DNA of 64,000 nt from Hyphomicrobium sp. (GTDB taxonomy: Bacteria; Pseudomonadota; Alphaproteobacteria; Rhizobiales; Hyphomicrobiaceae). Shown here in pieces: positions 22,987-43,830 of this stretch (the stretch's first letter is position 1; each line of letters opens with the position of its first letter). Both the position numbers and the translations under genes were made by a program. The notes beneath the pieces are model-generated. The model was not told the DNA's origin. It did no database searches and saw only the letters and a program-made list of their open reading frames with translations. The stretch spans positions 62,001 through 126,000 of the forward strand of contig NZ_JAIELN010000002.1 in NCBI RefSeq assembly GCF_019753045.1, in the 5' to 3' direction.

Positions 22987-22993
22987 GCATCCG

Positions 22994-25756: not shown

Positions 25757-25780
25757 CGGACTTTAATGCTGGAGGATAAG

Positions 25781-27208
25781 ATGCTCGACACCAACATGCT
25801 GATCGGCTCTGACTTCGTTGCCGGGACAGACGCACCGGAGCCAGTCGTCAACCCGAAGACGGAAGACGTCATCACCAATCTGCCGGACGCGTCCGCAGCC
25901 CAGGTCGATGCGGCCGTCAATGCTGCGGACAAGGCCTTCAAGGCTTGGTCGCAAACGACGGTCGGCGAACGGTCGACGCTGCTCTTGAAGCTCGCCGACG
26001 CAATCGAACGTGACGCTGAAAGCTTCGCCACGCTCGAGGCCTTGAATACCGGCAAGCCCCGCATTCGCGTTCTGCAGGATGAAATGCCGGCGATCGTCGA
26101 TTGCTTCCGCTTCTTTGCAGGCGCCGTTCGCAACATGCACGGCCCCGTCGCCGGCGAATACATGGCCGGTCATACGTCGATGATCCGTCGCGATCCGGTC
26201 GGCGTCGTCGGCTCCATCGCACCGTGGAACTATCCATTGATGATGGCGGCCTGGAAGCTTGCTCCGGCTCTAGCCGGCGGCAACACGATCGTGCTGAAGC
26301 CGTCCGAGCAGACGCCTCTGACGCTTCTGAAGCTCGGCAAGATCATCGCTGATATCTTCCCTGAAGGCGTGGTCAACATCGTCGTCGGCAAAGGTTCGAC
26401 AACGGGTTCTGCGCTGATCAACCATCCGAAGGTCTCGATGGTTTCGCTCACGGGAAGCATCGGAACCGGCCAGAAGGTCCTGCAGGCAGCAGCCACGAAC
26501 ATCAAGCGCACGCATCTTGAACTCGGCGGCAAAGCGCCTGTCATCGTCTTCGACGACGCCGACATCGCATCCGTCGTCGAGGGCGTGAAGATATTCGGTT
26601 TCTACAACGCGGGCCAGGACTGCACCGCGGCGTGTCGCATCTATGCCGGCAAAAAAGTCTACGACAACCTCGTCGCCGATCTTTCGAGCGCGGTGAAGGA
26701 ACTCAAGTACAACCAGGCCAACGACGACGAGAACGACCTCGGACCGTTGATCTCGTCCGCTCATAAGGAGCGCGTGAAGTCGTTCGTCGACCGGGCAAGC
26801 CTACAAAACCATATCGCTATGACGGCGGGCGGTAAGCCCGCAGCAGGAAAGGGCTTCTTCTTCGAGCCGACGGTCGTCGCGGGCGCCACGCAGAACGATG
26901 AGATCGTCCGCAAGGAAGTGTTCGGCCCCGTCGTCTCGATCACGCCGTTCGACGATGCCGACGAAGCGATCGCCTGGGCCAACGACAGCGATTACGGGCT
27001 GGCGTCCTCGGTTTGGACGTCGGACATCGCCCGGGGCATGAAGGTCGCGTCGCGGCTGCAGTACGGCTGCACGTGGGTTAACACCCATTTCATGCTTGTC
27101 AGCGAGATGCCGCACGGCGGCTTGAAGATGTCGGGCTACGGCAAGGATCTCTCGATGTATGCGCTCGAGGATTACACCGTACCGCGTCACGTGATGGTGA
27201 AGCTCTAG
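25781..27208 (+). CDS. Gamma-aminobutyraldehyde dehydrogenase-like (YdcW/PatD family)
   Basis: A 475-residue NAD-dependent aldehyde dehydrogenase with catalytic Cys281 in 'GQDCTAACR' and the general-base glutamate in 'LELGGKAP'. The C-terminus '[19 protein letters not shown]' strongly resembles E. coli PatD/YdcW. It would oxidise an aminoaldehyde such as 4-aminobutanal from putrescine to the amino acid. ATG 25781 is chosen over ATG 25766 because GGAGG (25771-25775) sits five bases before it. The position right behind ydcSTUV-like genes matches the E. coli operon. Confidence 0.9.
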
Positions 27209-27340
27209 TCGCAGTTCCACGGAGCATCACCGAAGCGCGCGGCTCGCCTGTCAACTGACACGGCGGCGAGGTCAAGTTCGCTTTGCCACAGCCCCGTAGT
27301 GTTTGAAAAAATAGAGAAGCGGTCGAAAGGTCGCCTCTCA

Positions 27341-28435
27341 ATGAAGCGCACGGGAGTCAAGGCAGCAGGCATGACGGGTACCGATGAGGCGACACACGAA
27401 GAGCTGTTGCAGCGATTGCAGATCCTGGCCGAGCGCGCGGTAAGGCGCTACGGCCTTCCGGGCGACTGCGCGGTCAAGCTCATAAACGTCTCCGAGAATG
27501 CAACGTATCGCGTCGATAGCAGCACGGGGCAAAGGTGGGCGCTTCGCATCCATCGCGAAAATTATCATTCGCGCACTGCAATAGCTTCAGAGCTCATGTG
27601 GCTTTCGGCTCTCCGCGAAAATGGCGGCGTTGCCACGCCGACGGCGCTGAGGGGCCTCGACGGCGAATACATCCAGACCGTTGCGGCTAGCGGGCTTCCG
27701 AACCCGCGCAACGTCGTGCTGTTCCAATGGGAGAATGGCGCGGAGCCGTCGAGTACCGACATCGCCGGCTTCGAGATGCTCGGCGAAACGGCGGCCCGCA
27801 TGCACGCCCATGTTCGCAAGTGGCAGCGGCCGGTCTGGTTCGAACGCTTCACTTGGGATTTTGAGACCAGCCTCGGCAGTCGTCCCCATTGGGGCTACTG
27901 GAAAGACGGGATGGGCATGACGCCGGAGGCGACGGCGGCCATCACCGAAGCCGTCGCGCTGATCGGACGCCGTCTCGAGAACTTTGGTAAATCGCCCGAT
28001 CGCTTCAATCTTGTGCACGGCGATATGCGGCTCGCCAATCTGCTGATGGACGGGTCGACCGTGAAGGTCATCGATTTCGACGACTGCGGATTTTCCTGGC
28101 TCCTTTACGATTGCGCGACCACCGTCTCGTTCTTCGAGCACACGCCGGAGGTGCCGGACCTGCTCAATGCGTGGGTTCGCGGTTATCGCCGCATCGGCAC
28201 TTTGAGCGAGGCCGAAGAAAGCGAAATTGCGACGTTCGTCATGCTGCGGAGACTTCTCCTCGTGGCGTGGATCGGATCGCATTCGGAAACCGAACTCGCG
28301 AAATCGATGGGCGTGGAATACACGCAGGGATCGATCGCGCTTTGCGAGAAGTACCTCTCACAGTACGGCACCGCCGCGGGGAAAGACGTTGCTGCACCGC
28401 CGAAGAAAGGTCTCCTGAAACGGCTTTTCGGCTGA
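27341..28435 (+). CDS. APH-fold phosphotransferase, possible amino-alcohol kinase
   Basis: A 364-residue aminoglycoside-phosphotransferase-fold kinase. The catalytic loop 'NLVHGDMRLANLLMDG' has the catalytic Asp228, and the metal-binding 'VKVIDFDDCGFSWLLYD' follows. Family members phosphorylate small hydroxy-amines such as choline, ethanolamine, hydroxylysine, homoserine and 1-amino-2-propanol. Its place among amine importers, and about 10 kb from a phospho-lyase-like aminotransferase, suggests an amino-alcohol substrate (inference). The start is uncertain: ATG 27341 (AAAGG upstream) or ATG 27371. It follows the aldehyde dehydrogenase by 132 bp on the same strand. Confidence 0.8.
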   Translation: MKRTGVKAAGMTGTDEATHEELLQRLQILAERAVRRYGLPGDCAVKLINVSENATYRVDSSTGQRWALRIHRENYHSRTAIASELMWLSALRENGGVATPTALRGLDGEYIQTVAASGLPNPRNVVLFQWENGAEPSSTDIAGFEMLGETAARMHAHVRKWQRPVWFERFTWDFETSLGSRPHWGYWKDGMGMTPEATAAITEAVALIGRRLENFGKSPDRFNLVHGDMRLANLLMDGSTVKVIDFDDCGFSWLLYDCATTVSFFEHTPEVPDLLNAWVRGYRRIGTLSEAEESEIATFVMLRRLLLVAWIGSHSETELAKSMGVEYTQGSIALCEKYLSQYGTAAGKDVAAPPKKGLLKRLFG

Positions 28436-28565
28436 ATGTTGCACCGCAATTGTGCAGTTGTTTTTGGCGAGTGCCGAATATTTCACCGCGCATGACGGTT
28501 GACCCGTGGGCCGCTTCTGCTAGCCTTTTTTCTCTGGAATATTGGCATCTGCTCACCAGGAAACG

Positions 28566-29645
28566 ATGGTACTCGGCATTAGCGACTTCGGAGCGAGCGG
28601 CGCTGGTAGCTCTATCAGTCGGGGGACCGACCCTTCTGTTCTAGCCTCCGCCGCCACCGGAATAGTGAAGTTCATCGAGCGCCAGCGCGGCGATGTCGAT
28701 CGCATTTTCGGCAGCGTCGGCATCTCGCCTGAAATGGCTGGCTCTCCGACTCTGCAGTTGAGCCTCAGCTCCTACTGCCGCCTGTTCGAGGAAAGCGCAC
28801 GAATAACCCGAAACGATAATTTCGGTTTGTGGTTCGGCAATGCATTCGATCCCCGAGACCTCGGTCTTTGGGGGTATGCCTCGCTCTCCGCTCCCTCGCT
28901 CGGCGTCGCTCTCGAAACGCTCGTTGAACTCTTTCCGCTGCACCAGCAATCGTCTTCGATGGCCCTGAGGACGGCGCCCGATGGCCTGGCGAGACTCGAA
29001 TATCGCATCGACGCGCCGCAAATCGTCGAACGCCGCCAAGACGCGGAACTGTCGCTCGGCATGTTCCTCAATCTCATTCGCGAAGCGATGGGCCAGAGCT
29101 GGGCCCCTGAGGAAGTTCATTTTGAGCATCCAAAGCCAGAAGCCTGGCGCGAGCATGAGCGTGCATTCGCGGCACCGGCCTTCTTCTCGCAGCCGACAAA
29201 CGCGATCGTGTTCCGGCCGCAAATCCTGAAGCAGGTGATGCCGGCTGCTGATCCGCGGCTCATGTGCGCAATGAAACTCTGTCTCGATCGGCTCTCCGAG
29301 CGTCGCGATGTGCGCTTCAGCATTACAGATCGTGTTCGCAGCGCCGTCCGCGCAAGACTGCCTGAAGGCTTTCCGCAAATCGAATGCGTGGCCGCTGAGC
29401 TGCGGCTTCCACTCAGCGCCATTCAGCGCGAGCTTCATTACGACGGACTGAGCTACAGCACCCTCGTCGAAAGCACGCGCCGCGACTTGGCGCTGTCCTA
29501 TGTGCGCCAGCGCCAGTTGTCGTTCTCTGAAATAGCCTTCCTCGTTGGCTATTCCGAACTCTCCGCCTTCAGCCGCGCTGTCCGGCGATGGACCGGCCTT
29601 TCTCCGCGCGCACTGCGCGCGGAGGTACTCGACAACCAAAGCTGA
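28566..29645 (+). CDS. AraC-family transcriptional regulator
   Basis: A 359-residue regulator. Residues about 35-210 resemble the arabinose-binding-like sensor domain of OruR/ArgR-type AraC proteins, and the last 100 residues form the double helix-turn-helix ('FSEIAFLVGYSELSAFSRAVRRWTGLSP'-type region near the end). ATG 28566 is chosen over an upstream TTG because AGGAA lies five bases before it. It is placed between the two amine importers and converges with the SDR gene, so it is the best candidate local regulator of the catabolic island. The inducer is unknown. Confidence 0.87.
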   Translation: MVLGISDFGASGAGSSISRGTDPSVLASAATGIVKFIERQRGDVDRIFGSVGISPEMAGSPTLQLSLSSYCRLFEESARITRNDNFGLWFGNAFDPRDLGLWGYASLSAPSLGVALETLVELFPLHQQSSSMALRTAPDGLARLEYRIDAPQIVERRQDAELSLGMFLNLIREAMGQSWAPEEVHFEHPKPEAWREHERAFAAPAFFSQPTNAIVFRPQILKQVMPAADPRLMCAMKLCLDRLSERRDVRFSITDRVRSAVRARLPEGFPQIECVAAELRLPLSAIQRELHYDGLSYSTLVESTRRDLALSYVRQRQLSFSEIAFLVGYSELSAFSRAVRRWTGLSPRALRAEVLDNQS

Positions 29646-29671
29646 TCAGAATTTGACCGCTAAGTGATGCG

Positions 29672-30451
29672 TTAGGCCTGCGCCAGCGCATCCGTGCTTT
29701 CGGGCAGGATCTGACCCCCGTCGACGATGATCGTCTGTCCGGTAACGTAGGCGGCTTCCTTGGTCGCGAAAAACAGCGCCGCGTAACCGATGTCCTCGAC
29801 CTTGCCGAGCTTCTGAAGCGGGATGCAAGCCGCAGCGGACTTCTCATACTCAGGTCCGAGAGCCGCAAGACCTTCTGTAGCGATATTGCCCGGCAGAACC
29901 GCGTTGACGGTAATGCCGTACTTCGCGAACTCCATGCAGGCCGTACGCATGAAGCCGAGCTGTCCTGCCTTCGTCGCGCCGTAGTGAGACCAGCCCGGGA
30001 AGGCTGTGATCGGGCCGGTAATCGACGAGGTGATGACGATGCGTCCCTGATCCGATTTCTTCAGATACGGCAGGCAGGCTTTGACCGACAGGAACGTTCC
30101 CTTGAGGTTCGTATCGGAAACGAAATCCCAATCTTCGGGCGACAATTCCTCGATCTTGGTCTGAGGAAAAATGCCGGCGTTGGCGCACAGGATGTCGATG
30201 CCGCCGTAAGCCGTGGCAGTCGCCTCGGCGAGAACCTGCAAGTCGCCCATGCTGGTGACGTCGGCGGAGAAGCCCATTGCGGTTCCACCGTCCCGGCGCA
30301 GCTCTTCAGCTGTAGCCTCTGCCTCTTTGAGATGCCGCGAGACGACGACGACCTTTGCGCCGCTCTTTGCGAAGACGCGCGCGATCCCCTTGCCGATCCC
30401 CTTGCTTGCACCGGTGACGATGACAGACCGGCCTGCGATAGACGTGAACAT
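29672..30451 (-). CDS. Short-chain dehydrogenase/reductase (FabG-like)
   Basis: A 259-residue SDR with the nucleotide-binding 'TGASKGIG' at residues 13-20, 'CANAG' near 89-93, and catalytic Ser142 or Ser143, Tyr157 and Lys161 ('SHYGATKAGQ'). It starts at 30451 with AAGGAGG eight bases upstream. It is the last gene of a minus-strand run beginning with the PotD-like binding protein, so it probably oxidises or reduces an alcohol or ketone derived from the imported compound. Substrate is unknown. Confidence 0.86.
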   Translation of the reverse strand: MFTSIAGRSVIVTGASKGIGKGIARVFAKSGAKVVVVSRHLKEAEATAEELRRDGGTAMGFSADVTSMGDLQVLAEATATAYGGIDILCANAGIFPQTKIEELSPEDWDFVSDTNLKGTFLSVKACLPYLKKSDQGRIVITSSITGPITAFPGWSHYGATKAGQLGFMRTACMEFAKYGITVNAVLPGNIATEGLAALGPEYEKSAAACIPLQKLGKVEDIGYAALFFATKEAAYVTGQTIIVDGGQILPESTDALAQA

Positions 30452-30515
30452 GGATATAACCTCCTTAGGGGCCGTGTTGTTGGTCTTGTTGAGATCGAGA
30501 GATTGAGAGCTTGTT

Positions 30516-31325
30516 CTAGGACGCCGCGTTCCGCTTCCGAGTGAGAAAGAGCATTGCGGCGTAGCCCCCAAAGAGGAGGACTGCGGCGGCCGCCGTCGAA
30601 ATCGTACCAAGCACGGGTACGCCCGGCGTGTAGCCCGCCACCATCTTTGCGTAGAGATACTTGGGCAAAGTGTTGTCCGCGCCCGTTGTGTAGAGCGACA
30701 GCGGGAAGTTGCCCCACGACAGCAGGAAGGCGAACAGACTTCCCGAAAAGATCCCCGGCATGAGAACAGGTAGCGTCACCTCGCGGAAAGTCTGCCATCG
30801 CGATGCGCCGAGATCCGTCGCCGCTTCCTCGAGAGACGGATCGAAGGAATAGACCTGAATGGCCATGACGAGCGTTACGACCGGCGCAATCCAGACCAGG
30901 TGTGCGAGGACAGCCGTCTTCCAGGATAGCGTCAGGCCCAAGGCGTTGAACCAAAGCAGCAGGGCGAGCCCAAGCACCGACTGTGGGAAGAAGATCGGGA
31001 GCAGAATGAACTTTTGGTAGAGCTTGCGGCCCTTCCAATCGTAGCGGGCGAAGGCCAGCGCACCGAAAAAGCCGAGCACGACTGCGATGACGGTGACCGT
31101 CGCCGCGATCGATAGAGAGGTGAGCGCCAGCGCACGGACTTCGAGCGAGTTGAAGACCTTCGACCACCAATCGAACCCGAAGGACGAAATCGGGAAGGTG
31201 AAGTAGCGGCTCGACGTCATCGACGCGAGGAAGATCGTCGCGCTGGGAATGAACACGAAGAGCAGCACCGCAGCGGTCCAGACGCCGATGAGGATGTGGC
31301 GAATGCTGTTATTGTTCTCAGACAT
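30516..31325 (-). CDS. PotC-like ABC transporter permease
   Basis: A 269-residue six-segment permease of the spermidine/putrescine PotC class, with EAA loop 'EAATDLGASRWQTFREVTLP'. ATG 31325 lies four bases after the stop of the PotB-like gene. It is the second membrane subunit of the potD-A-B-C-like importer on the minus strand. Confidence 0.9.
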   Translation of the reverse strand: MSENNNSIRHILIGVWTAAVLLFVFIPSATIFLASMTSSRYFTFPISSFGFDWWSKVFNSLEVRALALTSLSIAATVTVIAVVLGFFGALAFARYDWKGRKLYQKFILLPIFFPQSVLGLALLLWFNALGLTLSWKTAVLAHLVWIAPVVTLVMAIQVYSFDPSLEEAATDLGASRWQTFREVTLPVLMPGIFSGSLFAFLLSWGNFPLSLYTTGADNTLPKYLYAKMVAGYTPGVPVLGTISTAAAAVLLFGGYAAMLFLTRKRNAAS

Positions 31326-31329
31326 TACG

Positions 31330-32190
31330 TCACCGCTTTCCAAGTATTTGATCGAGATCGAAGCGCCTGAGCACGATGAGGACGAGCACGCTGACGACCA
31401 GCATCAGCAGCACCGCCAGCGCCGCCCCGAGAGGCCAGTTCTGCGCATACGTGAAGGCAATTTCGATGTCGTGTGTGATGGGGATGATACGCTGTCCGCC
31501 GAGAACCTTGGCCTCGGCAATGGCGCCGACAGCGAGCACGAACGTCAGCAGCGAGCCGATCATCAAACCAGGTGTCGACAGCGGCAGTTCAACTTCGCGG
31601 AAAACCTGCCAACGGGTTGCGCCCAGGTCTCTCGCCGCTTCACGCATCTGGTTCGGTACCATCGCGATTCCGAGCGTCATCGGAAACAGCATGAACGGCA
31701 GATAGACGTAGACCATGCCGAACAAGACGGCGGCCGGCGTGAAAAGAAAATCTCCCATCTCCACGCCAAAGAGCGTTCTCAAGGTTCCCGGAAGGACGCC
31801 GCCCTTGATGAAGAACAGCACCCAGCCGTAGAGGCGGATATTTTCCGAAACCACCAGCGGGATGGTGAAGAGCAGTGTCAAAACTGTCGACCAGCGGCCG
31901 AAGACGCGAACGAGACCGTACGCGACCGGATAGCAGATGAGCGCGAGAAGTACGACGGTAGCCGACGCCAGCCCCAGCGACCAAAACAACGAGACGTAGG
32001 TGTTGTCGCTGAAGATCGTTTCGTAATTTTCGAGAGTAGGCTCGTGCCAAAGTCCGAAGGTTCGGGCCGGCATGAAGCTGAAGCCCACGACCGCGAGCAG
32101 AGGCGCAACGAACCCGAGCGCCAGCAATACCATAATCGGTAGCGCCGCACGCCTTCCTGGTTGGGCGAGAACGGAGGTCTTTTCGATCAT
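31330..32190 (-). CDS. PotB-like ABC transporter permease
   Basis: A 286-residue permease with six hydrophobic segments and EAA loop 'EAARDLGATRWQVFREVELP'. The start at 32190 overlaps the stop of the ATPase gene by four bases (ATGA), which argues for it over an upstream in-frame start at 32226. It is part of the second amine-type importer in the window. Confidence 0.9.
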   Translation of the reverse strand: MIEKTSVLAQPGRRAALPIMVLLALGFVAPLLAVVGFSFMPARTFGLWHEPTLENYETIFSDNTYVSLFWSLGLASATVVLLALICYPVAYGLVRVFGRWSTVLTLLFTIPLVVSENIRLYGWVLFFIKGGVLPGTLRTLFGVEMGDFLFTPAAVLFGMVYVYLPFMLFPMTLGIAMVPNQMREAARDLGATRWQVFREVELPLSTPGLMIGSLLTFVLAVGAIAEAKVLGGQRIIPITHDIEIAFTYAQNWPLGAALAVLLMLVVSVLVLIVLRRFDLDQILGKR

Positions 32191-33260
32191 TCGTCGGCCA
32201 CCAGAATTGAATTTTCCGGATCCCAACCAATCAGAACTTCGTCGTCGAGCTTGCCCTTGAAGGGCTGCTGGCGAAGCTTTTCGACGAGGAATACTTTTTC
32301 GCCGACACGGACCTGGTATTGGATGCGCGAGCCGAGTGCGTATTCGTTATAGAGAACGCCTTTGAGGCTGTTCTGCGCGTCGCTCGGAGAGTTGAGGAAG
32401 CGAAGGAACTCTGGCCGGACGACCAAGCACTGCGCTTTGCTCTCGATTGCAGCCGGCGGAACTTTGAAGCTCGCGCCGAGCGTTTGCGAACGCACCGAGC
32501 CTGCGCCGTTGCTCTCGACGGGTATCACGTTGACGTCGCCCATGAACTCGGAGACGAAGCGCGAGCGGGGCGTCGAGTAGATTTCGTTGGGCGAGCCCAC
32601 CTGAATGAGCTTGCCGCGCCGCATGACGCCGATCCGGTCGCTCATCACCATTGCCTCTTCGAGGCTGTGGGTGATGTAGACGAATGTCTTGCCCGTTTCG
32701 CGGTGAATGTCCTTCAGCTCTTTCTCGAGCGTCTTGCGGAGCTTGTAGTCGATTGCCGAAAGCGGTTCGTCGAAAAACAGGATCTGCGGATCGAATGCGA
32801 GTGCGCGGGCAAGGGCGACGCGCTGGCGCTCACCGCCCGAACACAACGTGACGTTCTTCGAATAGTAGTCGGCGGGAAGATGCAGTTGCTGCATCAGCTC
32901 GCGTGCCCGCTTCGCGCGGGTCGCCGGATCGACGTTTCGGATCTTGAGGGCGAACTCGATGTTCTGTCCGACCGTCCGATGCGGAAAGAGCGCGAGCGAC
33001 TGAAACACCATGCATGTCGGCCGTTCGTTGGCCGGAGTATCGTTGATGCGCTTGTCGCGCAGCAGAATGTCCCCCGATGTCGGCCGCTCCATTCCGGCGA
33101 GCATGCGGATCAAGGTCGTCTTGCCGCTACCGGAAGGTCCGACGATCGTGAAGAATTCGCCTTCGCCGATGGAAAGGTTGATATCGTCGACGGCTGCTAG
33201 ATTGCCGAACGCCTTACGTACGTTCTTCAATCGCAGGATAGGTTCGGAAGTTCCGGTCAC
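32187..33260 (-). CDS. PotA-like ABC transporter ATPase
   Basis: A 357-residue ATPase with Walker A 'GPSGSGKT' at residues 41-48, signature 'LCSGGERQRVALARALA' (an unusual Cys-Ser before GGE), Walker B 'ILFFDEPLSAID' and 'VYITHSLEEAM'. A C-terminal TOBE-type domain follows. It energises the PotBC-like permeases. An intercistronic hairpin separates it from the upstream binding-protein gene. Confidence 0.91.
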   Translation of the reverse strand: MTGTSEPILRLKNVRKAFGNLAAVDDINLSIGEGEFFTIVGPSGSGKTTLIRMLAGMERPTSGDILLRDKRINDTPANERPTCMVFQSLALFPHRTVGQNIEFALKIRNVDPATRAKRARELMQQLHLPADYYSKNVTLCSGGERQRVALARALAFDPQILFFDEPLSAIDYKLRKTLEKELKDIHRETGKTFVYITHSLEEAMVMSDRIGVMRRGKLIQVGSPNEIYSTPRSRFVSEFMGDVNVIPVESNGAGSVRSQTLGASFKVPPAAIESKAQCLVVRPEFLRFLNSPSDAQNSLKGVLYNEYALGSRIQYQVRVGEKVFLVEKLRQQPFKGKLDDEVLIGWDPENSILVADE

Positions 33261-33303
33261 GTAGGAGTTCCAACTTCTTTGAAAGCTAATGAGAAACGCG
33301 TCT

Positions 33304-33338
33304 GGCCTTCCGCCTATCTAACAGGGCGGCGGAAGGCC
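33304..33338 (-). terminator. Strong intercistronic hairpin between potD-like and potA-like genes
   Basis: GGCCTTCCGCC (33304-33314) and GGCGGAAGGCC (33328-33338) form a perfect 11-bp stem with a 13-base loop, extendable by an outer AACGC/GCGTT pairing. On the minus transcript it lies after the binding-protein gene and before the ATPase gene, with only a short T stretch beyond. It may protect binding-protein mRNA or partially terminate, giving more binding protein than transporter. Confidence 0.65.
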
Positions 33339-33387
33339 GAAGCGTTACATGCCGTTTACTGAGGTCATGACGCAAACGTCATGCAGC

Positions 33388-34542
33388 TCAGGATTTCTTC
33401 GCCGCGTTCCAGATATCGAGCAGCTTGTCGTAGTCGGGAACGATATCGTACTCGACCGAACGCGCCATCTCTTCTTCGAGGCTGTCCCACTGAATGGCCT
33501 CGAGCTGATCTTTGGTGAAGAGCTTGAAGCATTCGGGGTTGCCCATCTGAGCGACCGGATTGAACGTGCCTTCGGCAAACGCCACCGTGTGCGCGACTTC
33601 GGGAGCCTGCACGTATTCCAGGAACTGCTCGGCGAGCGGAGAGCCGTGCGGGTTGTTGACGACCGAGGTGATTTCGATCCAGGCGATGCCGCCCTTGCCG
33701 CCGGCAAGCGGACCCTTGTTGGGCGTGACGCCGCGCAAATTCAAGTGACCGTCCGCGCGGGCGGGAGAAGCCGAGTACGTGCCGCCCGTGAGATGGCAAT
33801 CGATTTCGCCGGAAATCATGGCCTGGTTCATGGTGGCGATGTCGCCGACGACCTTCTTGTTCTTCAGAATGCGCTTTGCGGTTTCCTCGAACTTGGCGAC
33901 TTGTTCGGGTGTATGCGGCTGATAGGGATCGAAGCCGGCGATGCAGCAGATGCCGAACACGTTCCAGTCGTCGGATTCCAGAATGCCGAAGCGGCCGGCG
34001 AGCTTCGGGTCATTGAAGAGATCCCAGCCCTGGTCTTCTGCAGTTTTGCGGCTGATCTTGTCGGTGTTGACGACGAACGAGTAGGGCCCGAACCGCTGCG
34101 CCATGCCGAGCAGATCTTTGCCGGAGTCGTCCATCGCCCATTTATAGGGCGGCTTGAACTGCGGCATCATCTTCGCGAAGTATGGCTCGAACTTGGCGCG
34201 ATCGAGCGGCTTGATCAGCTTCTCGGGCAGCATGATTTTGCGTGCCCAGGGATTGTTGACGTTGATGAGATCCCAAACGTTGATCTCGCCAGCGCGCAGA
34301 CGGTTGATCATCGTCGGATCGTTGGTCAGGCTTTCGGCCTTGACCGTCGCGCTCTTGCTCGAACGGAACGGGTCGAGCACCTGAGCCGAGTTGTAACCTT
34401 CCCAACAGAGAATATTCAGTTCCTTGTCACGGGCCGCGTGGGCGGCGCCTGCGAAGGGGCCTACTTGAGTGGCCGCCAGCGTCGCCGCCGCGGACGCCGA
34501 AGTTTTCAAGAAGTCGCGCCGTGAGAGTTTGCTATCGAACAT
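33388..34542 (-). CDS. PotD-like substrate-binding protein with Tat signal
   Basis: A 384-residue extracellular solute-binding protein family 1 member. It starts at 34542 with AGGAG eight bases upstream. The twin-arginine signal is 'RRDFLK' at residues 8-13, followed by an Ala-rich hydrophobic stretch ending Ala-His-Ala. The mature part opens 'LNILCWEGYNSAQVLDPF', typical of the PotD/PotF polyamine class. It feeds the PotABC-like importer. The export route is Tat, unlike the Sec-type signal of the YdcS-like protein. The ligand is presumably an amine, but this is inference. Confidence 0.87.
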   Translation of the reverse strand: MFDSKLSRRDFLKTSASAAATLAATQVGPFAGAAHAARDKELNILCWEGYNSAQVLDPFRSSKSATVKAESLTNDPTMINRLRAGEINVWDLINVNNPWARKIMLPEKLIKPLDRAKFEPYFAKMMPQFKPPYKWAMDDSGKDLLGMAQRFGPYSFVVNTDKISRKTAEDQGWDLFNDPKLAGRFGILESDDWNVFGICCIAGFDPYQPHTPEQVAKFEETAKRILKNKKVVGDIATMNQAMISGEIDCHLTGGTYSASPARADGHLNLRGVTPNKGPLAGGKGGIAWIEITSVVNNPHGSPLAEQFLEYVQAPEVAHTVAFAEGTFNPVAQMGNPECFKLFTKDQLEAIQWDSLEEEMARSVEYDIVPDYDKLLDIWNAAKKS

Positions 34543-34618
34543 GCCTGTCACTCCTGGTGAGCGGATGATGTTTTTTTTGCCCGTAACAATCAGGGCGAAA
34601 CGGAAGCGATCGACGGGG

Positions 34619-34640
34619 CTCGTCCACGGAAGAGGACGAG
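34619..34640 (-). promoter_or_regulatory. Stem-loop and palindromes upstream of the potD-like operon
   Basis: CTCGTCC (34619-34625) and GGACGAG (34634-34640) form a perfect 7-bp stem. A separate GTGAT-GGC-ATCAC palindrome lies at 34693-34705. Both sit in the 237-bp gap before the potD-like gene and could be a leader structure and an operator. No assay-independent evidence for function is visible. Confidence 0.3.
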
Positions 34641-34779
34641 TAAGGAAGAGCGATGCAGCCAGTTGTCCACGGTAACGGAAGATCCCCCCTCTGTGATGGC
34701 ATCACTGTATGCTGCGGTCGCCAAGTCGATTTGACCCTCCCCTATGGAAACTTGACCTTCTGGACGTCGTCAAGCCGGT

Positions 34780-35475
34780 TTAGGCCAGCTTCATCAGGGC
34801 GTTGAGTTCAGCACTCGACATGACGTGTCCATAGATCATGTTCATGATCTCGAGTTCCTTGTGGTGAAGTTCGTCGGACCCGGCGGCGCAGCAATCTTCG
34901 ATCACGACGACGGCAAAGCTCTCGTCGGCGAGGCTCCGGACAGTCGACGAGACGCATTGGTCCGTGAAAATCCCGCAGCAGACGACGGTTTTTATGCCGA
35001 GGTTGGTTAGGATCAGCCGCAGGTTGGTGCCCGTCAGTGCACTGTCTGTTGTCTTGGTAACGACGATCTCGTCCCCAATGGGCTGAAGCTCCGGGACAAT
35101 CTGGGACGGCAACTCGTCTTTAGGTAAAAGAAGGTTGTTCCAGCCCGGCATCTTCTGCGACAGCGAGCGGTCCCGGCCCTCCTTGGTATGGCAGGCGATG
35201 CGCGCGAACAGGCATTCGATGCCGTTCCGCCGAAACCTCTCGAGAAGGTCCTTCGTTCTCGGCAGAACGACTTCATGCATGCGCTTGTGAAAGGGCGTCC
35301 AAGCGTCATACCGCCTCTGATCCTCCGGCGAAAGCGACGCACGGTCCGGCCGGGAGAGGTAGGTGTTCTGGACGTCGATGATGAGGAGGGCGGTGTGGGA
35401 CTTGGAGAGATCCGGGTCGTCTGGCTCCGGAGCGCCGTCGTAATAGATGGATCGATAACCCGTCTTCCAGCTCAT
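34780..35475 (-). CDS. Isochorismatase-like cysteine hydrolase
   Basis: A 231-residue protein with the family's catalytic triad: Asp34 in 'LLIIDVQNTYL', Lys141 in 'VVTKTTDSALTGTNL' and Cys174 in 'GIFTDQCVSST'. Relatives hydrolyse amides, carbamoyl compounds or nicotinamide (N-carbamoylsarcosine amidase, ureidoacrylate hydrolase) or, without the Cys, isochorismate. The start at 35475 has AAAGGA seven bases before it and follows the diol dehydratase small-subunit stop by ten bases, so it belongs to the same operon. It may release ammonia or a carbamoyl group from the catabolised compound; this is inference. Confidence 0.84.
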   Translation of the reverse strand: MSWKTGYRSIYYDGAPEPDDPDLSKSHTALLIIDVQNTYLSRPDRASLSPEDQRRYDAWTPFHKRMHEVVLPRTKDLLERFRRNGIECLFARIACHTKEGRDRSLSQKMPGWNNLLLPKDELPSQIVPELQPIGDEIVVTKTTDSALTGTNLRLILTNLGIKTVVCCGIFTDQCVSSTVRSLADESFAVVVIEDCCAAGSDELHHKELEIMNMIYGHVMSSAELNALMKLA

Positions 35476-35485
35476 GCCCGTCCTT

Positions 35486-35914
35486 TCAGAAGCGTTTTTT
35501 GTAAAGTGAGCGGCGCTCATATACGTCCGCCGCCTCCTCGATGAAGGCCGCGACGCCCTCGGCGCCGTATGTTTCGCGAAGTTCTCGCGCAGCCGCGAGC
35601 AATTCGTCCTTGGAGCTGGCCCGGCCCGGACGCAGCAGCTCGTAGATCCGCATGATCACGTCTTGCGGAACGTCCACCAGCTCGGCGCCGCGCTCGAAAT
35701 TCGCAGCCAGCGTTGGCCGCCCCGCCGCTGTCGAGATTTCAGCCTGCTGGCGAAGCGCGCGGTCCGTGATGCGAAGGTCTTCGAGCGATACGCGGTCGGA
35801 CAGCACGCCATCGAGCGTAATGTCATCGAGCTTCTTGCCGGCTTTCGTCTCGACCACGTCGGGCCGGTTCTCGGCGAGCGGATAATCGGCGACGGTGAGA
35901 GGCTTCCCGGTCAT
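35486..35914 (-). CDS. Diol/glycerol dehydratase small subunit (PduE/DhaB3-like)
   Basis: A 142-residue protein recognisable as the small (gamma) subunit of B12-dependent diol dehydratase, from 'DYPLAENRPDVVETKAGKKL', 'DRVSLEDLRITDRALRQQAE' and 'IYELLRPGRAS' with the C-terminal 'AAFIEEAADVYERR'. It is shorter than PduE (about 173 residues), mainly at the N-terminus. The start overlaps the stop of the fused large/medium subunit gene by four bases, so the subunits are translationally coupled and probably form one enzyme. Confidence 0.9.
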   Translation of the reverse strand: MTGKPLTVADYPLAENRPDVVETKAGKKLDDITLDGVLSDRVSLEDLRITDRALRQQAEISTAAGRPTLAANFERGAELVDVPQDVIMRIYELLRPGRASSKDELLAAARELRETYGAEGVAAFIEEAADVYERRSLYKKRF

Positions 35915-38193
35915 GCGGCAGCTCCGAGGAACATCACATCGATCTCTTCTGGTTCAGCGCCCTCGGACGTCATCTCCGTCTCGATCGCGTAGATGAGCGA
36001 GACTCTAGCATGGTAACGTGAGCCCATGGCCTCGCCGCGTGTCGGCACGATAACGGGCTCGGGCATTTCGCCAAGCGCATAAGCAGCCGCATTGAGCCCC
36101 ATTCGCTTGTAATGTTCGACCTTGGTGATCGGCGAGTTCGAGAAGAGTTCGAGATTGTTGTGCGGAAGCCGGTCCTTCTGATGAATGACGGCGGTGCCTT
36201 TTGCCTGAATGCCGATCCCGATGCCGGAGCCGGCGAGCCGCGCCGCGCTGAGCCCGAGGAACGAGGTATCTGCCGTATGCCGCATCCGGACGACGCGGGC
36301 CGTGCAGCCGCCTTCCGTTATGCCGCCAATCAGCACCCGCAAAATCGCGGAGAGGGGATGCCCGGCGACGGTTTGAAAGAGCTTCAGGCCAAAGGCGGGG
36401 CTGATGCCGATGACGACTTCCTTCGGATTGTGGGTCGCGGCGGCGGGCCCCGTCGGCCGGTAGGCGACCCGGTTGACTTCTCCGGGCCTGAAGGCCGCTT
36501 CTACTCTCAGCACCTCCTGGCGCGTCAGCACATCGCGAATGGCGACGATTTCGTCGCGACGCTCCTCGGTGAGACGGTAGCCTGTGCCAGGCCCCTGATA
36601 ATCGTTGGGATTGTTTACGGCGCTGACGATGCGCCCGTCGCGAACGACCGCCGACGTCTGCAGATAATCGCCGGAAACGCGGAGTCTTACGAGCTTCAGC
36701 AGGTTTTCCGCCTCTTCGGTGAAGCCGCGCGCCGCAAGCGCCTTTATGACGTCGATGACCGTGATCGACCGATCGTAGATTGCTTCGCTGATTAGCGCCA
36801 CGTCGCGGCCCGAAAACGTCCGCGTTTCATCCGAGCCGGATGCGGCAACGACCGAGAGCTTCATGTCGGCGGTCGGTTTCGCGAGCCTGAGTTCTTCCAG
36901 CACCGCGCTGATCGCATCGACGGCCCGCGACCTGAGCTCCATGACGCGCGTCTCGCCGACCGGCGTAAGCCCGCCGTCTGCCTCGAAGTCGCGCTGCAGA
37001 ACCAGATAATCCTCGAGTTCCTCACCATTGAGCAGAGAGGCGTTGAACGAATTGTCGTACTTTAGAATTGAGCCGAATCCGGAACAGATGAGATCGGACC
37101 CTGCGATGAGATATGGCAGGATCTTCGCGCCGACGCGGATTTCCGATTCGGTCGCGCGAGCGTCGTTGCCGGACGCGCATTCGAGATCGAGCCAGACGGC
37201 GATCAGGTTCTCGGCCATCAATTCGCGCATGCCGCCAGGAACGGTGCACGTGACGGGCGCTCCGTCGATGCCGCCGTTCTGCGTGCCCTGCACGCCCATC
37301 GCGCGCTGCAGGCAAAGGCACCGCGCTTCGAGATAGAGCAGTGATTTGCGGTCGTGAAAGCCCATCAGCAACTCGGAGCCCGCGCCCGAGGTGCACCGCA
37401 TCTTGATGCCCCGCGAAGCGTAGGCGGCCGCGAGAAATGCTTTCGACCAAGGCGTATCGTCGCCGTCGATGAAGCTCTTTTCGGTGCCGTAGACCGACAC
37501 GGTCTCGGCGTAGGAGGTGAAGCCCGCCATGCCGATCTTGAGTTCTTCAGCTTCTTCGCTGGAGCACTGAAAGAGCGCGCCCCACCGTCCGACGGCAGCC
37601 CCGACGGCGCAGGCAACGGCGTTCGACCAGGAGTTGCGTGCAACCCGCATAGTCGTCTCGATTTCGTCGAAGCCGAGCGCCACCGCAGTTGCGGCATCAG
37701 CCGCCATCTGCAGAGGGTCGTCTTTCGCGTTCGTGACGTGCGCTTGATTGCCGGGCGTCTGCCGTGCCCGCATCTTGCTGTAGGCGAAAGCGATCTCGAG
37801 CGATGAAAGGTGGCTGACGACATCGGCGAGCTTGGCCGGCGTCATGCCGTGAGCGAGCCGAACCAGCGTCTTTCGCGGCACGTTCATGTCGACGAGCATG
37901 CGAGCCACTTCCAGAGACGGCATCGCCATCGCTTCCGGCGCGATTTCGGGATCGAGATGATACCGGGCTATGAACACATCGATCATATCGAAGTCGCGGA
38001 CGGCTATGCCATCCATGGACTCGACGACACCGTCGCCGAGCGACAGTCCCGGTTTGGGATCGAACGGACTTTTGAACGCCGAAAAACCGCTTGCAGCATC
38101 TTCTGCGGCGAACTTGTCGAGCCGAAGCGGGCGCTCGTCCCAATCGGAAAATCGCTTCCAGCGATTCGGCCGTGCCTGCGTTTCATCAGTCAT
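35911..38193 (-). CDS. B12-dependent diol dehydratase, fused large and medium subunits
   Basis: A 760-residue protein. Residues about 1-556 match the large subunit (PduC) and about 575-760 the medium subunit (PduD). All seven active-site residues I can align to the Klebsiella enzyme are present at a constant offset of nine: Gln150, His152, Glu179, Glu230, Gln305, Asp344 and Ser371. The medium part has 'GSGIGIGIQAKGTAVIHQKD' and lacks the PduD N-terminal encapsulation tail. The enzyme uses adenosylcobalamin to convert 1,2-diols or glycerol to aldehydes. Start ATG 38193 begins the conserved protein; the longer frame to 38340 is not supported. No reactivase (DdrAB/PduGH) gene is in the window. 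Confidence 0.93.
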   Translation of the reverse strand: MTDETQARPNRWKRFSDWDERPLRLDKFAAEDAASGFSAFKSPFDPKPGLSLGDGVVESMDGIAVRDFDMIDVFIARYHLDPEIAPEAMAMPSLEVARMLVDMNVPRKTLVRLAHGMTPAKLADVVSHLSSLEIAFAYSKMRARQTPGNQAHVTNAKDDPLQMAADAATAVALGFDEIETTMRVARNSWSNAVACAVGAAVGRWGALFQCSSEEAEELKIGMAGFTSYAETVSVYGTEKSFIDGDDTPWSKAFLAAAYASRGIKMRCTSGAGSELLMGFHDRKSLLYLEARCLCLQRAMGVQGTQNGGIDGAPVTCTVPGGMRELMAENLIAVWLDLECASGNDARATESEIRVGAKILPYLIAGSDLICSGFGSILKYDNSFNASLLNGEELEDYLVLQRDFEADGGLTPVGETRVMELRSRAVDAISAVLEELRLAKPTADMKLSVVAASGSDETRTFSGRDVALISEAIYDRSITVIDVIKALAARGFTEEAENLLKLVRLRVSGDYLQTSAVVRDGRIVSAVNNPNDYQGPGTGYRLTEERRDEIVAIRDVLTRQEVLRVEAAFRPGEVNRVAYRPTGPAAATHNPKEVVIGISPAFGLKLFQTVAGHPLSAILRVLIGGITEGGCTARVVRMRHTADTSFLGLSAARLAGSGIGIGIQAKGTAVIHQKDRLPHNNLELFSNSPITKVEHYKRMGLNAAAYALGEMPEPVIVPTRGEAMGSRYHARVSLIYAIETEMTSEGAEPEEIDVMFLGAAA

Positions 38194-38251
38194 GCTTGTT
38201 TTCTCGACGATGGAGAGCCCGATTGCAATCGGAACTGACGTTACTCTGAGC

Positions 38252-38303
38252 GCGGCCACGGGATTTGACCAGAGCGGCCCCGAAGTTGACGGGGTTCGCG
38301 GCC
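38252..38303. promoter_or_regulatory. Triple GCGGCC direct repeats in divergent promoter region
   Basis: GCGGCC occurs at 38252-38257, 38274-38279 and 38298-38303, spaced 22 and 24 bp, about two helical turns. The first two sit in longer related stretches, each ending in TTGAC about ten bases on. They lie in the 239-bp gap between the divergent diol dehydratase and aminotransferase genes, so could be regulator sites. The GC-rich background makes chance likely. Confidence 0.25.
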
Positions 38304-38432
38304 AGGGGCTGATGACAAACTGAACAGACCCCTCTTCCAAGGGTCAAGCTGTTGCCGGCGGCGTACCCTATATTAGTCGAAACCGATGCGGATACGCAGC
38401 CCATTTGTCAGGGAGCTTGCCCAAGGGGCCCT

Positions 38433-39770
38433 ATGGAAGCTACGCGAAAAATTCTCGACCTCAACGCCTTCGACATGAACGCAGCCGACAAGCTGCCTCC
38501 CGCGGTCACGAGCCTCGTCAAACGCCGGAAGCAGACATTCGGGCCGACTTCGATGCTGTTTTACGAACGGCCGTTGAACCTCGTCCGGGCCGAGGGCGTC
38601 TGGCTCCACGATGCCGATGGCACGCGCTATCTCGACGCTTACAACAACGTGCCGTCAGTCGGGCACTGTCATCCCCGCGTCGTCGAAGCCATATCGCGGC
38701 AGCTCGGCACGCTGAACACCCACACGCGTTACCTCTATGACAATATCTACACGTATGCCGAACGCCTTCTGGCCACGATGCCCGAGCCGGTCTCGAATAT
38801 CGTATTTACGTGCACAGGCAGCGAAAGCGGCGATCTCGCGCTGCGCATCGCCCGCGCGGTGACAGGCGGCAAGGGCTTCATCGTGACCGAGAACGCCTAT
38901 CACGGTAACACCACGGCCGTGACGGAAATATCGCCATCGTCCGCGAGCGCCGAGCCGCGGCCGCCGTACGTGTTCCTCGTGCCCGCGCCGGACACGTATC
39001 GCCACGGCAGCGAAGCCATTGGACCCAAATTCGCCGAGGACATACGCAAAGCCATCGCAGCCATGGAGAAAGCGGGCATTCGTCTCGCCGGGTTCATCGC
39101 CGACAGCATCTTTTCGAGCGACGGTGTCTACCCGGGCGAGCCGGGATTTCTGGCCGAAGCGGTCGCGGCAGTCCGCGACGCGGGCGGCGTCTACATCGCC
39201 GATGAGGTTCAGCCAGGCTTCGGCCGCACCGGCGAGAAAATGTGGGGTTTCGCCCGCCACGGCGTGGTGCCCGACATGGTCGTAATGGGAAAACCGATGG
39301 GCAACGGCTTCCCGATGGGCGGCGTCGCTGTCAAACCCGCTATGCTCGAGTCATTCGGCTCGAGGTCCGGGTACTTCAACACATTCGGCGGCAATCCGGT
39401 CGCGGCGGCCGCGGGACTGGCAGTATTGGACGTCCTGAACGAAGAAGGCCTGCAGGAAAACGCCCTTGATACCGGCGCCTATCTGCGCACAGAGCTTCGT
39501 ATTGCCGGCGGAAACGGCGAACGCGTCGGGGACGTGCGCGGCTCCGGCCTCTATATAGGCGTCGAACTCGTGAAGGATAAGGCGTCAGCCGAGCCCGATC
39601 GCGCCCTCGCTGAGAGAATCGTCAACGGCATGCGCGAGCGCAATATCCTGATCGGGATAGCAGGCGGTCACGGCAACGTCTTGAAGATCCGTCCGCCGCT
39701 CTGCTTTACTCGGGAGCATGCAGATATCTTCATCGATGGCTTCAGAAGCACATTGGCAAAGGTACTCTGA
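38433..39770 (+). CDS. Class-III aminotransferase fold enzyme, phospho-lyase-like
   Basis: A 445-residue PLP enzyme with the PLP lysine Lys287 in 'VMGKPMGNGFP' and 'IADEVQPGFGRTG' upstream. The segments 'YLDAYNNVPSVGHCHPRVV', 'LNTHTRYLYDNIYTYAERL' and 'CTGSESGDLALRIAR' closely resemble ethanolamine-phosphate and phosphohydroxylysine phospho-lyases (AGXT2L family) rather than plain omega-transaminases. Such enzymes cleave amino-alcohol phosphates to an aldehyde, ammonia and phosphate. An ordinary transaminase role cannot be excluded. ATG 38433 has AAGGGG a few bases upstream; the longer frame from 38352 is not needed. It is followed 24 bases later by an aldehyde dehydrogenase gene. Confidence 0.85.
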   Translation: MEATRKILDLNAFDMNAADKLPPAVTSLVKRRKQTFGPTSMLFYERPLNLVRAEGVWLHDADGTRYLDAYNNVPSVGHCHPRVVEAISRQLGTLNTHTRYLYDNIYTYAERLLATMPEPVSNIVFTCTGSESGDLALRIARAVTGGKGFIVTENAYHGNTTAVTEISPSSASAEPRPPYVFLVPAPDTYRHGSEAIGPKFAEDIRKAIAAMEKAGIRLAGFIADSIFSSDGVYPGEPGFLAEAVAAVRDAGGVYIADEVQPGFGRTGEKMWGFARHGVVPDMVVMGKPMGNGFPMGGVAVKPAMLESFGSRSGYFNTFGGNPVAAAAGLAVLDVLNEEGLQENALDTGAYLRTELRIAGGNGERVGDVRGSGLYIGVELVKDKASAEPDRALAERIVNGMRERNILIGIAGGHGNVLKIRPPLCFTREHADIFIDGFRSTLAKVL

Positions 39771-39794
39771 AACCCGATCGATCACGGATCTAGG

Positions 39795-41273
39795 ATGCAA
39801 TCGAAACTTTTCATCGATGGAAAGTGGTGTGACGCGCTGGGCGCTCGCACGCTCGACGTCGTCAACCCGGCCAACGAACGAACCTTCCACCGCTGCGCCG
39901 CCGGATCAGCAGCGGACATCGACGCGGCAGTAGCAGCTGCAAAAGCCGCAATGGCCGGCCCATGGTCGCGCACGACCGGCCGGGACCGCGCCGCATTACT
40001 TCGCGCGATTGGCGCGGCGATCGAGGAGCAGAAGCAAGCGCTCGCCGAGATCGAGGTGAGAGACAACGGCAAGCCCCTGCCTGAAGCACTATGGGACATC
40101 GGCGACGCCGCCTATTGCTTCAATCTCTACGCAACGTACGCTGAGGAATTGGACGCGCGCCAAGGCGAAATCATCGGCGTTCCGGACGCGCGTTTTCAGT
40201 CGCGCGTCAAATACATGCCCGCAGGCGTGGCTGGGCTCATCGTGCCGTGGAATTATCCCCTGTTGATGGCGGCGTGGAAGGTCGCGCCGGCAATCGCGGC
40301 AGGATGTGCGGTCGTGCTGAAGCCGTCCGAGTATACGCCGCTGACGGCGCTCGAACTCGCGCGCATCGCAGCAGAAGTCGGGCTGCCGAATGGCGTCTTG
40401 AACGTCGTCACGGGCTATGGTGCGGACGCCGGCGCGCGCCTCGCCTCCCATCCCGACGTCCGCAAGTTGGCCTTCACGGGCTCCGTCCAGACGGGCATCG
40501 CGGTCGCATCCGCTGCGGCGCGCGACGTCAAAAGCATCAGCCTGGAGCTTGGAGGAAAATCGCCGATCATCATCTTCGACGATGCCGATATCGAGCAGGC
40601 CGTCGAATGGGTGATGTTTGGAATCTTCTGGAACCAGGGACAAGTCTGCAGCGCCACATCTCGGATGATCGTCGAGAAGGGCATCGCGCCGAAGCTCATC
40701 GACCGGCTCTCAGTGGAAGCCAAGAAAATCACGATCGGCGACGGCATGGCGCCGGGCACGCTGTTGGGACCGCTCGTCAGCAAAACCCAATATGACAAGG
40801 TGCTCGGATATATCGATGCTGGAAAGAGCGAGGCAACGCTCGTCACCGGCGGCGGGCGGCCCTCGCATCTCAACGAAGGCTACTTCCTGGAGCCGACGAT
40901 CTTCGCGGATGTGCCACCCTCAGCGCGAATTTGGCGCGAGGAGATTTTCGGTCCCGTCCTCGCCGTCACGACGTTCGATACGGAAGACCAAGCCCTGACC
41001 TTGGCCAATGATAGCGAGTTCGGCTTGGCAGCAGCCGTCATGTCGGGCGACTTGAAGAGGGCGGAACGCGTCGCCGACGCTTTCGAAGCCGGCGTCGTCT
41101 GGATCAATTGCTCGCAACCGAATTTTCTCGAGCCACCTTGGGGCGGCGTGAAAAAAAGCGGCGTCGGTCGCGAGCTTGGAACGTGGGGACTGAACAACTT
41201 CCTCGAGCCGAAGCAGATCACCGCCTACACGACCCGTGAGCCGTGGGGCTGGTACCTGAAGGGCGGCGGCTGA
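39795..41273 (+). CDS. Aminoaldehyde/betaine-aldehyde dehydrogenase (ALDH10-like)
   Basis: A 492-residue NAD-dependent aldehyde dehydrogenase with catalytic Cys285 and the general-base Glu in 'LELGGKSP'. The stretch 'FWNQGQVCSATSRMIVE' is characteristic of the plant-type ALDH10 group (betaine aldehyde and aminoaldehyde dehydrogenases), and 'VPWNYPLLMAAWKVAPA' is the cofactor-domain motif. It would oxidise the aldehyde made by the adjacent phospho-lyase-like enzyme or by polyamine catabolism. It forms a two-gene unit with that enzyme. It converges with an ABC-2 permease gene nine bases away. Confidence 0.9.
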   Translation: MQSKLFIDGKWCDALGARTLDVVNPANERTFHRCAAGSAADIDAAVAAAKAAMAGPWSRTTGRDRAALLRAIGAAIEEQKQALAEIEVRDNGKPLPEALWDIGDAAYCFNLYATYAEELDARQGEIIGVPDARFQSRVKYMPAGVAGLIVPWNYPLLMAAWKVAPAIAAGCAVVLKPSEYTPLTALELARIAAEVGLPNGVLNVVTGYGADAGARLASHPDVRKLAFTGSVQTGIAVASAAARDVKSISLELGGKSPIIIFDDADIEQAVEWVMFGIFWNQGQVCSATSRMIVEKGIAPKLIDRLSVEAKKITIGDGMAPGTLLGPLVSKTQYDKVLGYIDAGKSEATLVTGGGRPSHLNEGYFLEPTIFADVPPSARIWREEIFGPVLAVTTFDTEDQALTLANDSEFGLAAAVMSGDLKRAERVADAFEAGVVWINCSQPNFLEPPWGGVKKSGVGRELGTWGLNNFLEPKQITAYTTREPWGWYLKGGG

Positions 41274-42967: not shown

Positions 42968-43029
42968 CAATTGTCTCTGTGCGATGGCGTGCCTCGACCC
43001 GGCACGCATCGCAGCGTCTGCTATCGTTG

Positions 43030-43779: not shown

Positions 43780-43830
43780 TCTTTCTCTCCATATTTGGAC
43801 TTCGGGGGGAAGCGCCAAGTTTCGGTCGTG

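Follow-up and report, generated by a model that had tools for sequence, protein, structure and literature searches.

The bacterial microcompartments of Rhodococcus and Mycobacterium (RMM) are described in two forms, RMM1 and RMM2 (Aaum, Aut), which an excerpt of Axen 2014 (PMC4207490) separates by the presence of a diol dehydratase. The same excerpt leans towards an RMM2 compartment that makes no use of the dehydratase, or else is bifunctional; RMM2 is mentioned briefly in a passage of Sutter 2021 (PMC8217296) and the Aut pathway is proposed in one of Ravcheev 2019 (PMC6620236). The window considered here, 64,000 nucleotides of a Hyphomicrobium sp. assembly (GCF_019753045.1, contig NZ_JAIELN010000002.1, positions 62,001 to 126,000), holds an island of genes for an APH-fold kinase, a short-chain dehydrogenase/reductase (SDR), a class III pyridoxal phosphate (PLP) enzyme, a cysteine hydrolase, an ABC importer and a B12-dependent dehydratase. 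Judged by the kinship of its proteins, the island appears to be a shell-free relative of RMM2. We hold with moderate confidence that it encodes the RMM/Aaum amino-alcohol pathway in a form without compartment, to which a specialised B12 dehydratase has been added.

Gene content, sequence kinship, co-occurrence among relatives, the absence of shell and reactivase genes and the changes in the dehydratase pocket are direct observations. The host assembly comprises 4.52 Mb in 35 contigs and is 97.3% complete; gene models were derived from open reading frames (ORFs) with Pfam and NCBIfam scans. The genes named in the original prediction, made by a model from the letters of the window, are all present with strong family matches. 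On the minus strand a group runs from 38190 down to 29672 (dehydratase genes ddLM and ddS, hydrolase, four-gene PotD-type importer, SDR) with intergenic gaps of -40 to 228 bases. Divergent from the dehydratase, the PLP gene plp occupies the plus strand, and after a gap of 24 bases comes an aldehyde dehydrogenase (ALDH) gene, ald2 (38433-41273). A second plus-strand stretch (21790-29645) carries a ydcSTUV-like importer, a further ALDH gene (ald1), the kinase and an AraC regulator. Motifs are intact in the kinase (HGDMRLAN), the hydrolase (D34, C174) and the ALDHs (GQxC). The features are as follows.

21790-25756, plus strand: ydcSTUV-like importer, probably a separate unit (YdcS model 665 bits, below the cut-off of 725)
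25766-27208, plus strand: ald1, aminobutyraldehyde-dehydrogenase-type ALDH (NF010000 794 bits, cut-off 615); island membership uncertain
27299-28435, plus strand: kin, predicted APH-fold amino-alcohol kinase of the RMM type (best PDB match 6ef6)
28542-29645, plus strand: AraC-family regulator, QhpR-like (NF049968 303 bits, cut-off 250)
29672-30451, minus strand: sdr, SDR resembling the RMM-type 1-amino-2-propanol dehydrogenase (best PDB matches 6ci8/6ci9)
30516-31343, minus strand: importer permease B (PF00528)
31330-32226, minus strand: importer permease A (PF00528)
32187-33260, minus strand: importer ATPase (PF00005 111 bits, and TOBE_2)
33388-34551, minus strand: sbp, PotD-type substrate-binding protein with a Tat-like signal (PF13416, TAT_signal)
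34780-35475, minus strand: hyd, isochorismatase-family cysteine hydrolase, putatively an amidohydrolase (PF00857 124 bits)
35486-35914, minus strand: ddS, dehydratase small subunit, overlapping ddLM by 4 bases (PF02287 170 bits)
35911-38190, minus strand: ddLM, fused large and medium subunits of a B12-dependent diol/glycerol-type dehydratase (PF02286 707 bits and PF02288 94 bits, one frame)
38433-39770, plus strand: plp, class III PLP enzyme of the phospholyase clade, start placed at the first ATG in frame (5g4i and 6tor)
39795-41273, plus strand: ald2, hydrolytic-type ALDH (PF00171 563 bits)

Kinship and conservation of the enzymes

Against the Protein Data Bank (PDB) the kinase has one outstanding match, 6ef6 at 297 bits, the next sequence scoring 52. 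The SDR matches 6ci8 (296 bits), 6ci9 (295), 3rih (284) and 3pk0 (281) before the scores fall to 187. We take 6ef6 to be the 1-amino-2-propanol kinase and 6ci8 the 1-amino-2-propanol dehydrogenase of the M. smegmatis RMM, the names in the PDB table being generic. For the PLP enzyme the matches are 5g4i (379 bits) and 6tor (363 bits), with nothing else above 181; these are an Arthrobacter phospholyase and the human ethanolamine-phosphate phospho-lyase. Its PLP lysine is kept (MGKPMGNG), sequence scores place it in the phospholyase clade, and it is 47% identical (391 bits) to the aminotransferase encoded inside the shell operon of R. jostii RHA1, its likely orthologue. We caution that likely orthologues, here and below, are based on one-way BLAST identities and not on trees. 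All three enzymes have their closest matches among RMM or phospholyase proteins, and the next group scores far lower. Kinases of this type are reportedly widespread outside microcompartments, often beside a candidate phospholyase; if that is right, a kinase paired with a phospholyase outside any shell is in itself no novelty. Papers on the M. smegmatis kinase and dehydrogenase are cited in a passage of PMC8007038.

The product of ald2 resembles betaine aldehyde dehydrogenases, scoring below the equivalog cut-offs, and is not of the acylating type found in RMM (26% identity over 168 residues). The proposal that an RMM-like core is present stands for the kinase, SDR and PLP enzyme and fails for the acylating ALDH.

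How constant is the association? Neighbourhoods were compared at named loci drawn from the best 80 of 145 relatives, so that percentages describe near relatives, and 45 of the 80 are well flanked, having 9 kb or more of sequence on each side. Identity floors were 40% (kin), 50% (sdr, sbp, plp), 55% (hyd) and 70% (ald1, ald2), and copies of lower identity are missed. The small dehydratase subunit is found at all 45 well-flanked loci, the SDR at 36, the kinase at 31, the hydrolase at 30, the binding protein at 24, the AraC regulator at 18, a PLP enzyme of the window's type at 12, ald1 at six and ald2 at four. Kinase and SDR stand together beside the dehydratase at 31 of the 45 and shell-free versions recur, which bears out the suggestion that these genes keep company without shell genes. 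The closest fused dehydratase among the 80, that of Hyphomicrobium facile DSM 1565 (99% identical), has the same neighbourhood as the window across the 22 kb compared. Among 397 genomes drawn from the host's order, the kinase is matched at E ≤ 1e-35 in 24 of 27 genomes with a fused dehydratase against 86 of the 370 others (Fisher p = 8e-12, kinship ignored). Kinase and PLP genes also lie adjacent and away from a fused dehydratase, in a genome of the same genus that has none (G177) and in G004, about half a megabase from it.

Some parts of the island appear to be interchangeable. The 31 kinase loci carry either plp (nine) or c9 (12), another class III enzyme 25-28% identical to it whose best matches are acetylornithine/putrescine-type aminotransferases; ten have neither, some being cut by the flank, and none has both. 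Likewise the PotD-type importer is present at 38 of the 80 loci and an amino-acid permease at 22, never together, with neither at 20. These exclusions suggest exchangeable parts for one job.

The amino-alcohol genes have a counterpart on plasmid pAt of A. fabrum C58, with identities to the window of 42% (kinase), 56% (PLP enzyme), 58% (SDR), 65% (hydrolase) and 71% (sbp), 59% (ATPase), 57% (permease A) and 64% (permease B) in the importer. All eight are likely orthologues. The 17 kb stretch compared has no dehydratase match, so the amino-alcohol module is able to exist separately from that enzyme; no shell gene or ALDH is annotated in it, the plasmid gene table being incomplete, and a DeoR regulator takes the place of the AraC protein.

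A similar row built from other parts is seen on plasmids of Shinella (L113, 14980-22069) and Agrobacterium cucumeris (L114, 14980-22069): a sugar-type ABC importer, a fused dehydratase, an SDR, an APH kinase and a phospholyase. Fused dehydratase, SDR, APH kinase and phospholyase also stand in a row in Ancylobacter and at one Rhodospirillaceae locus (L105, L108, L107). On the plasmids and at L105 the SDR is about 30% identical to that of the window and the phospholyase 54-58%, and the kinase has no blastp match at 1e-8. The assembly of the four activities from parts of other lineages argues for their working together.

Shell proteins and the fused dehydratase

The original prediction saw no shell gene in the region, and this is true of the whole 97.3% complete assembly, in which PF00936 and PF03319 each give zero matches; E. 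coli and Synechococcus controls were matched. The dehydratase was matched in 32 genomes of the draw, 27 with the fused frame (in fragments in G038 and G120) and five with separate subunits. PF00936 is present in 17 of the 27 and in all five unfused genomes; in ten of the 17 the shell genes lie on the dehydratase contig, 5-12 kb away, and in seven on separate contigs. All 17 shelled fused genomes have an RMM-like acylating ALDH, at 49-54% identity in 16 and 38% in G114, which is 71% complete (L085 as query). Among the ten fused genomes without PF00936 a match is found only in G256, at 31%, and the host genome has none at E ≤ 1e-40 to the acylating ALDH of its shelled relatives. With both shell and acylating ALDH searched for and absent, the island does not encode an RMM microcompartment and would instead act as the enzyme core of one does.

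The shelled relatives do resemble RMM. At L085 the BMC-H protein is 71% identical to that of RHA1, two BMC-T-like proteins 59% and 59% and the acylating ALDH 44%. Three shelled loci encode small proteins that share 27-31% identity with a hypothetical protein of the RHA1 shell operon. These small proteins have about 126-148 residues with an N-terminal helix like an encapsulation peptide (L085 5191-5619, L042 20546-20926, L098 17188-17634), and that of L085 has no Pfam match. On a tree of 25 D301-clade dehydratases (see below), with five open forks and G038 left out, shell state changes at least six times; this replaces a tree of 29 rows with seven changes, one involving G256 on a very long branch. 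Such counts cannot separate gain from loss.

The fusion of large and medium subunits in ddLM was not visible to the original prediction. All seven catalytic residues checked against K. oxytoca PduC are kept (Q141, H143, E170, E221, Q296, D335, S362). The substrate pocket is changed, with S301D and Q336A, and R337 and S373 are also found (PduC numbering). In 76 aligned sequences (75 of the 80 loci and the window; L046, L048, L104, L106 and L110 fall outside the ORF cluster) position 301 is Asp and residues 299, 302, 303 and 304 are Gly, Gly, Ala and Pro without exception. Position 336 is Ala in 70, Thr in five and Cys in one; 337 is Arg in 75 and Ala in one, with Lys in Shinella; 373 is Ser in 75. 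D301 was read in the Shinella plasmid enzyme and in 25 of 25 genomes of the order (L003-L027; L028 lacks the stretch), a set that overlaps the 76. The unfused loci L030-L032 retain S301 and Q336. As far as alignment tells, the D301 dehydratases are a distinct clade; G256, fused and only 44% identical, has kept S301 with A336.

No reactivase (PF08841) is matched in the host genome. The family is present in five of five unfused genomes and none of the 27 fused, G256 included, and an archaeal unfused dehydratase locus on a plasmid also adjoins reactivase genes. The original prediction gave the dehydratase a related diol as substrate; the dehydratase is present, the changed pocket and missing reactivase having been overlooked.

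Extracts of a review (PMC7674605) bear on these features. In them the C3 hydroxyl of glycerol faces Ser301 in a conformation linked to inactivation, joining the α and β subunits by engineering made inactivation in lysate slower, and a swap of the β subunit is the proposed mode of reactivation. A covalent α-β link would hinder such a swap, so fusion and loss of the reactivase would fit each other. The extracts (PMC7674605) give kinact values with glycerol of 1.15 per min for wild type, 0.22 for S301A, 0.081 for Q336A and 0.66 for the double mutant, and with 1,2-propanediol the value climbs from 0.025 to 0.36 when both residues are mutated; change at both 301 and 336 is thus not clearly protective. 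They report no test of Asp at 301. Lying on the C3 side of the substrate, Asp301 would suit an ammonium group.

Ahead of its conserved RWK start the dehydratase has a short stretch that, by eye at the loci inspected, is not of the encapsulation-peptide kind, upstream start codons making some loci look longer. The dehydratase may therefore be cytosolic even at shelled loci. A second piece of dehydratase is present at L002 (G000:C1:250819-253995, match 1504-1677), covering the first 58 residues at 71% identity; it adjoins an ALDH match about 150 kb from the island and is likely a decayed second copy. The host genome has the corrin-ring gene CbiC/CobH, and within the window there is no cobalamin or other riboswitch match in Rfam at the gathering threshold.

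Proposed pathway and alternatives

We infer the substrates, the order of steps, the role of the hydrolase and the reason for the absence of a reactivase. A cationic amino compound would be taken up by the PotD-type importer and the cysteine hydrolase would probably release it from an amide. The SDR would interconvert amino-ketone and amino alcohol, the kinase would phosphorylate the hydroxyl adjacent to the amino group, and elimination of phosphate and ammonia by the PLP enzyme would yield an aldehyde. This would be oxidised in the cytosol by a hydrolytic ALDH, in the window the adjacent ald2, with neither shell nor acylating dehydrogenase. The fused B12 dehydratase would convert a related 1,2-diol, polar or charged on its C3 side, to an aldehyde, and the covalent α-β link, perhaps with the changed pocket, would let it work without a reactivase. 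One compound may be served by both aldehyde-forming routes.

The substrate is probably an amine. The sbp model (pLDDT 84) best matches VcPotD1 and PotD, the top nine fold matches having TM values of 0.64-0.67 by query and 0.75-0.79 by target; it points to the PotD class only, not to a ligand. The alternative amino-acid permease has weak similarity to an ethanolamine permease (46 bits, below cut-off). Two Roseovarius loci carry a glutamine-synthetase-like ligase with an iron alcohol dehydrogenase (L074 6631-9157, L092 7339-9867; families read on L074). The ligase scores 190 bits as gamma-glutamylputrescine synthetase and 211 as glutamate-ammonia ligase, both below cut-off, and may reflect a route by way of a gamma-glutamylated amine. 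A class I glutamine-amidotransferase-fold protein, c26, lies near the usual place of the hydrolase at L053 (12690-13427, Dongia deserti), L054, L057, L065 and L071; its family was read on L053 only and L071 has both c26 and hydrolase. The binding protein, permease, ligase and c26 all point to an amine, for which 3-amino-1,2-propanediol and 1-amino-2-propanol are the first candidates.

A bolder proposal can be advanced only tentatively. The D301 clade would be a new kind of B12 enzyme, a reactivase-independent fused dehydratase for amino-substituted 1,2-diols such as 3-amino-1,2-propanediol, with Asp301 holding the ammonium and fusion and pocket change removing the need for a reactivase. In an amino-alcohol pathway of two arms, able to run with or without an organelle, it would supply the one for diols.

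Several points weigh against a compartment-free amino-alcohol pathway with attached dehydratase. The kinase is only 37% identical to its counterpart in the RHA1 RMM and 42% to that of C58. ald2 stands beside plp at five of seven Hyphomicrobium-type loci and is missing at L035 and L068; an ALDH matching ald1 or ald2 is found at only nine of the 45 well-flanked loci, and aldehyde oxidation is thus no constant part of the island. In many relatives c9 is the PLP partner. Since the C58 stretch has no dehydratase, that enzyme need not share the substrate of the module, and the Roseovarius loci L074 and L092 have no kinase match or shell-cluster ORF across 22 kb. Another doubt comes from the plasmids of Shinella and A. 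cucumeris, whose importer, being of sugar type, fits a polyol-like substrate better than a simple amine. The dehydratase of G256 is fused yet lacks D301, and the Arg or Lys at 337 that accompanies D301 might form a salt bridge with it or neutralise it, in place of substrate binding by the acid.

Could the enzymes form one linear pathway for a single amino-polyol? Kinase and phospholyase might take serinol to hydroxyacetone, for example, the SDR might give 1,2-propanediol and the B12 dehydratase propanal. This we consider unlikely. The two plasmids speak for it, with four enzymes in a row, one importer and no ALDH listed among them in an incomplete gene table, as does the coupling suggested by their kinase and SDR of other lineages; A. 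cucumeris does, however, have an annotated succinate-semialdehyde dehydrogenase about 8 kb upstream. The SDR and kinase of the window are nearest to 1-amino-2-propanol enzymes, whose route needs no dehydratase, the C58 stretch holds the rest without one, and Asp301 would favour a polar group at C3 over the methyl that 1,2-propanediol carries there.

Nor does it seem probable that dehydratase and amino-alcohol module act on unrelated substrates, being neighbours through shared uptake, regulation or horizontal transfer. That would explain the C58 stretch and the well-flanked loci without kin (14 of 45) or sdr (nine of 45), and in the excerpt of Axen 2014 (PMC4207490) the RMM2 dehydratase is judged possibly unused by the compartment. 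Against it, the joining is repeated across families with partners of other lineages, and the gene row stands on two plasmids.

An island mainly for polyamine catabolism, in which ydcSTUV and the aminobutyraldehyde dehydrogenase act and the rest is incidental, is very improbable and was rejected: the YdcS-like protein (below its cut-off), ald1 (above the PRK13473 cut-off) and the PotD-like fold of the second binding protein favour it, but ydcSTUV and ald1 rarely travel with the rest, ald1 at 70% identity or more being near ddLM at six well-flanked loci against 31 for the kinase and 36 for the SDR and, as the flank cuts some loci, at three of the 23 where the kinase is present with a further 1.5 kb or more past it. 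The placing of ald1 in the island by the original prediction, with ydcSTUV in the same region, is accordingly not supported. A mobile or foreign origin was also set aside, the window having even GC (58-63%) and no tRNA.

Beyond the island the window continues (41283-48404) with a pair of ABC-2 exporter genes, an SDR gene and the genes of an RND pump and its fusion protein for the membrane; clusters of the RND, fusion protein, ATPase and ABC-2 permease occur at seven of the 80 loci, the Hyphomicrobium-like ones. Upstream of ydcSTUV (17140-21002) are a MocR-type regulator, with an EhuR model score of 388 bits below its cut-off of 480, and then the molybdate importer genes modA and modC.

Comparison with known systems

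In the ydcSTUVW operon of E. coli, as in the window, genes for a YdcS-type binding protein and ABC components stand in line with one for an aminobutyraldehyde-type ALDH. The differences are that the YdcS model scores below cut-off and that a kinase follows. The genes at 21.8-27.2 kb are presumably an ordinary arrangement of this kind.

With PduCDE and DhaB the dehydratase has in common the three domain types and all seven catalytic residues checked; it differs in the fusion of large and medium subunits, in S301D with Q336A, and in the absence of a reactivase gene from the genome. Phrases such as 'fusion of the large' and 'fused subunits' occur in a genome paper (PMC3543383), possibly of another enzyme. 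Among open-access literature titles we recognised none on a shell-free variant or on the D301 clade. A natural B12 dehydratase that is free of reactivase and already altered at two pocket residues studied for inactivation would be relevant to a recognised bottleneck when 1,3-propanediol and 3-hydroxypropionate are made with B12 enzymes.

RMM1 and RMM2 are among the closest described systems, and the kinase, SDR and PLP enzyme have their nearest relatives or likely orthologues there. Genes for a diol dehydratase are described for RMM2 in the excerpt of Axen 2014 (PMC4207490), and the combination is therefore not as novel as was first supposed; the RHA1 stretch compared has no dehydratase. The window differs in having no shell and, in the genome, no acylating ALDH of that kind, with a hydrolytic ALDH instead. 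Its regulator is of the AraC type rather than GntR, the GntR-domain protein of the window (17140-18561) being the MocR-type one beside the molybdate importer, and a cysteine hydrolase and a PotD-type importer are additional. Shelled and shell-free genomes that share one enzyme set, with at least six switches between the two states, would allow the purpose of the shell to be asked about directly.

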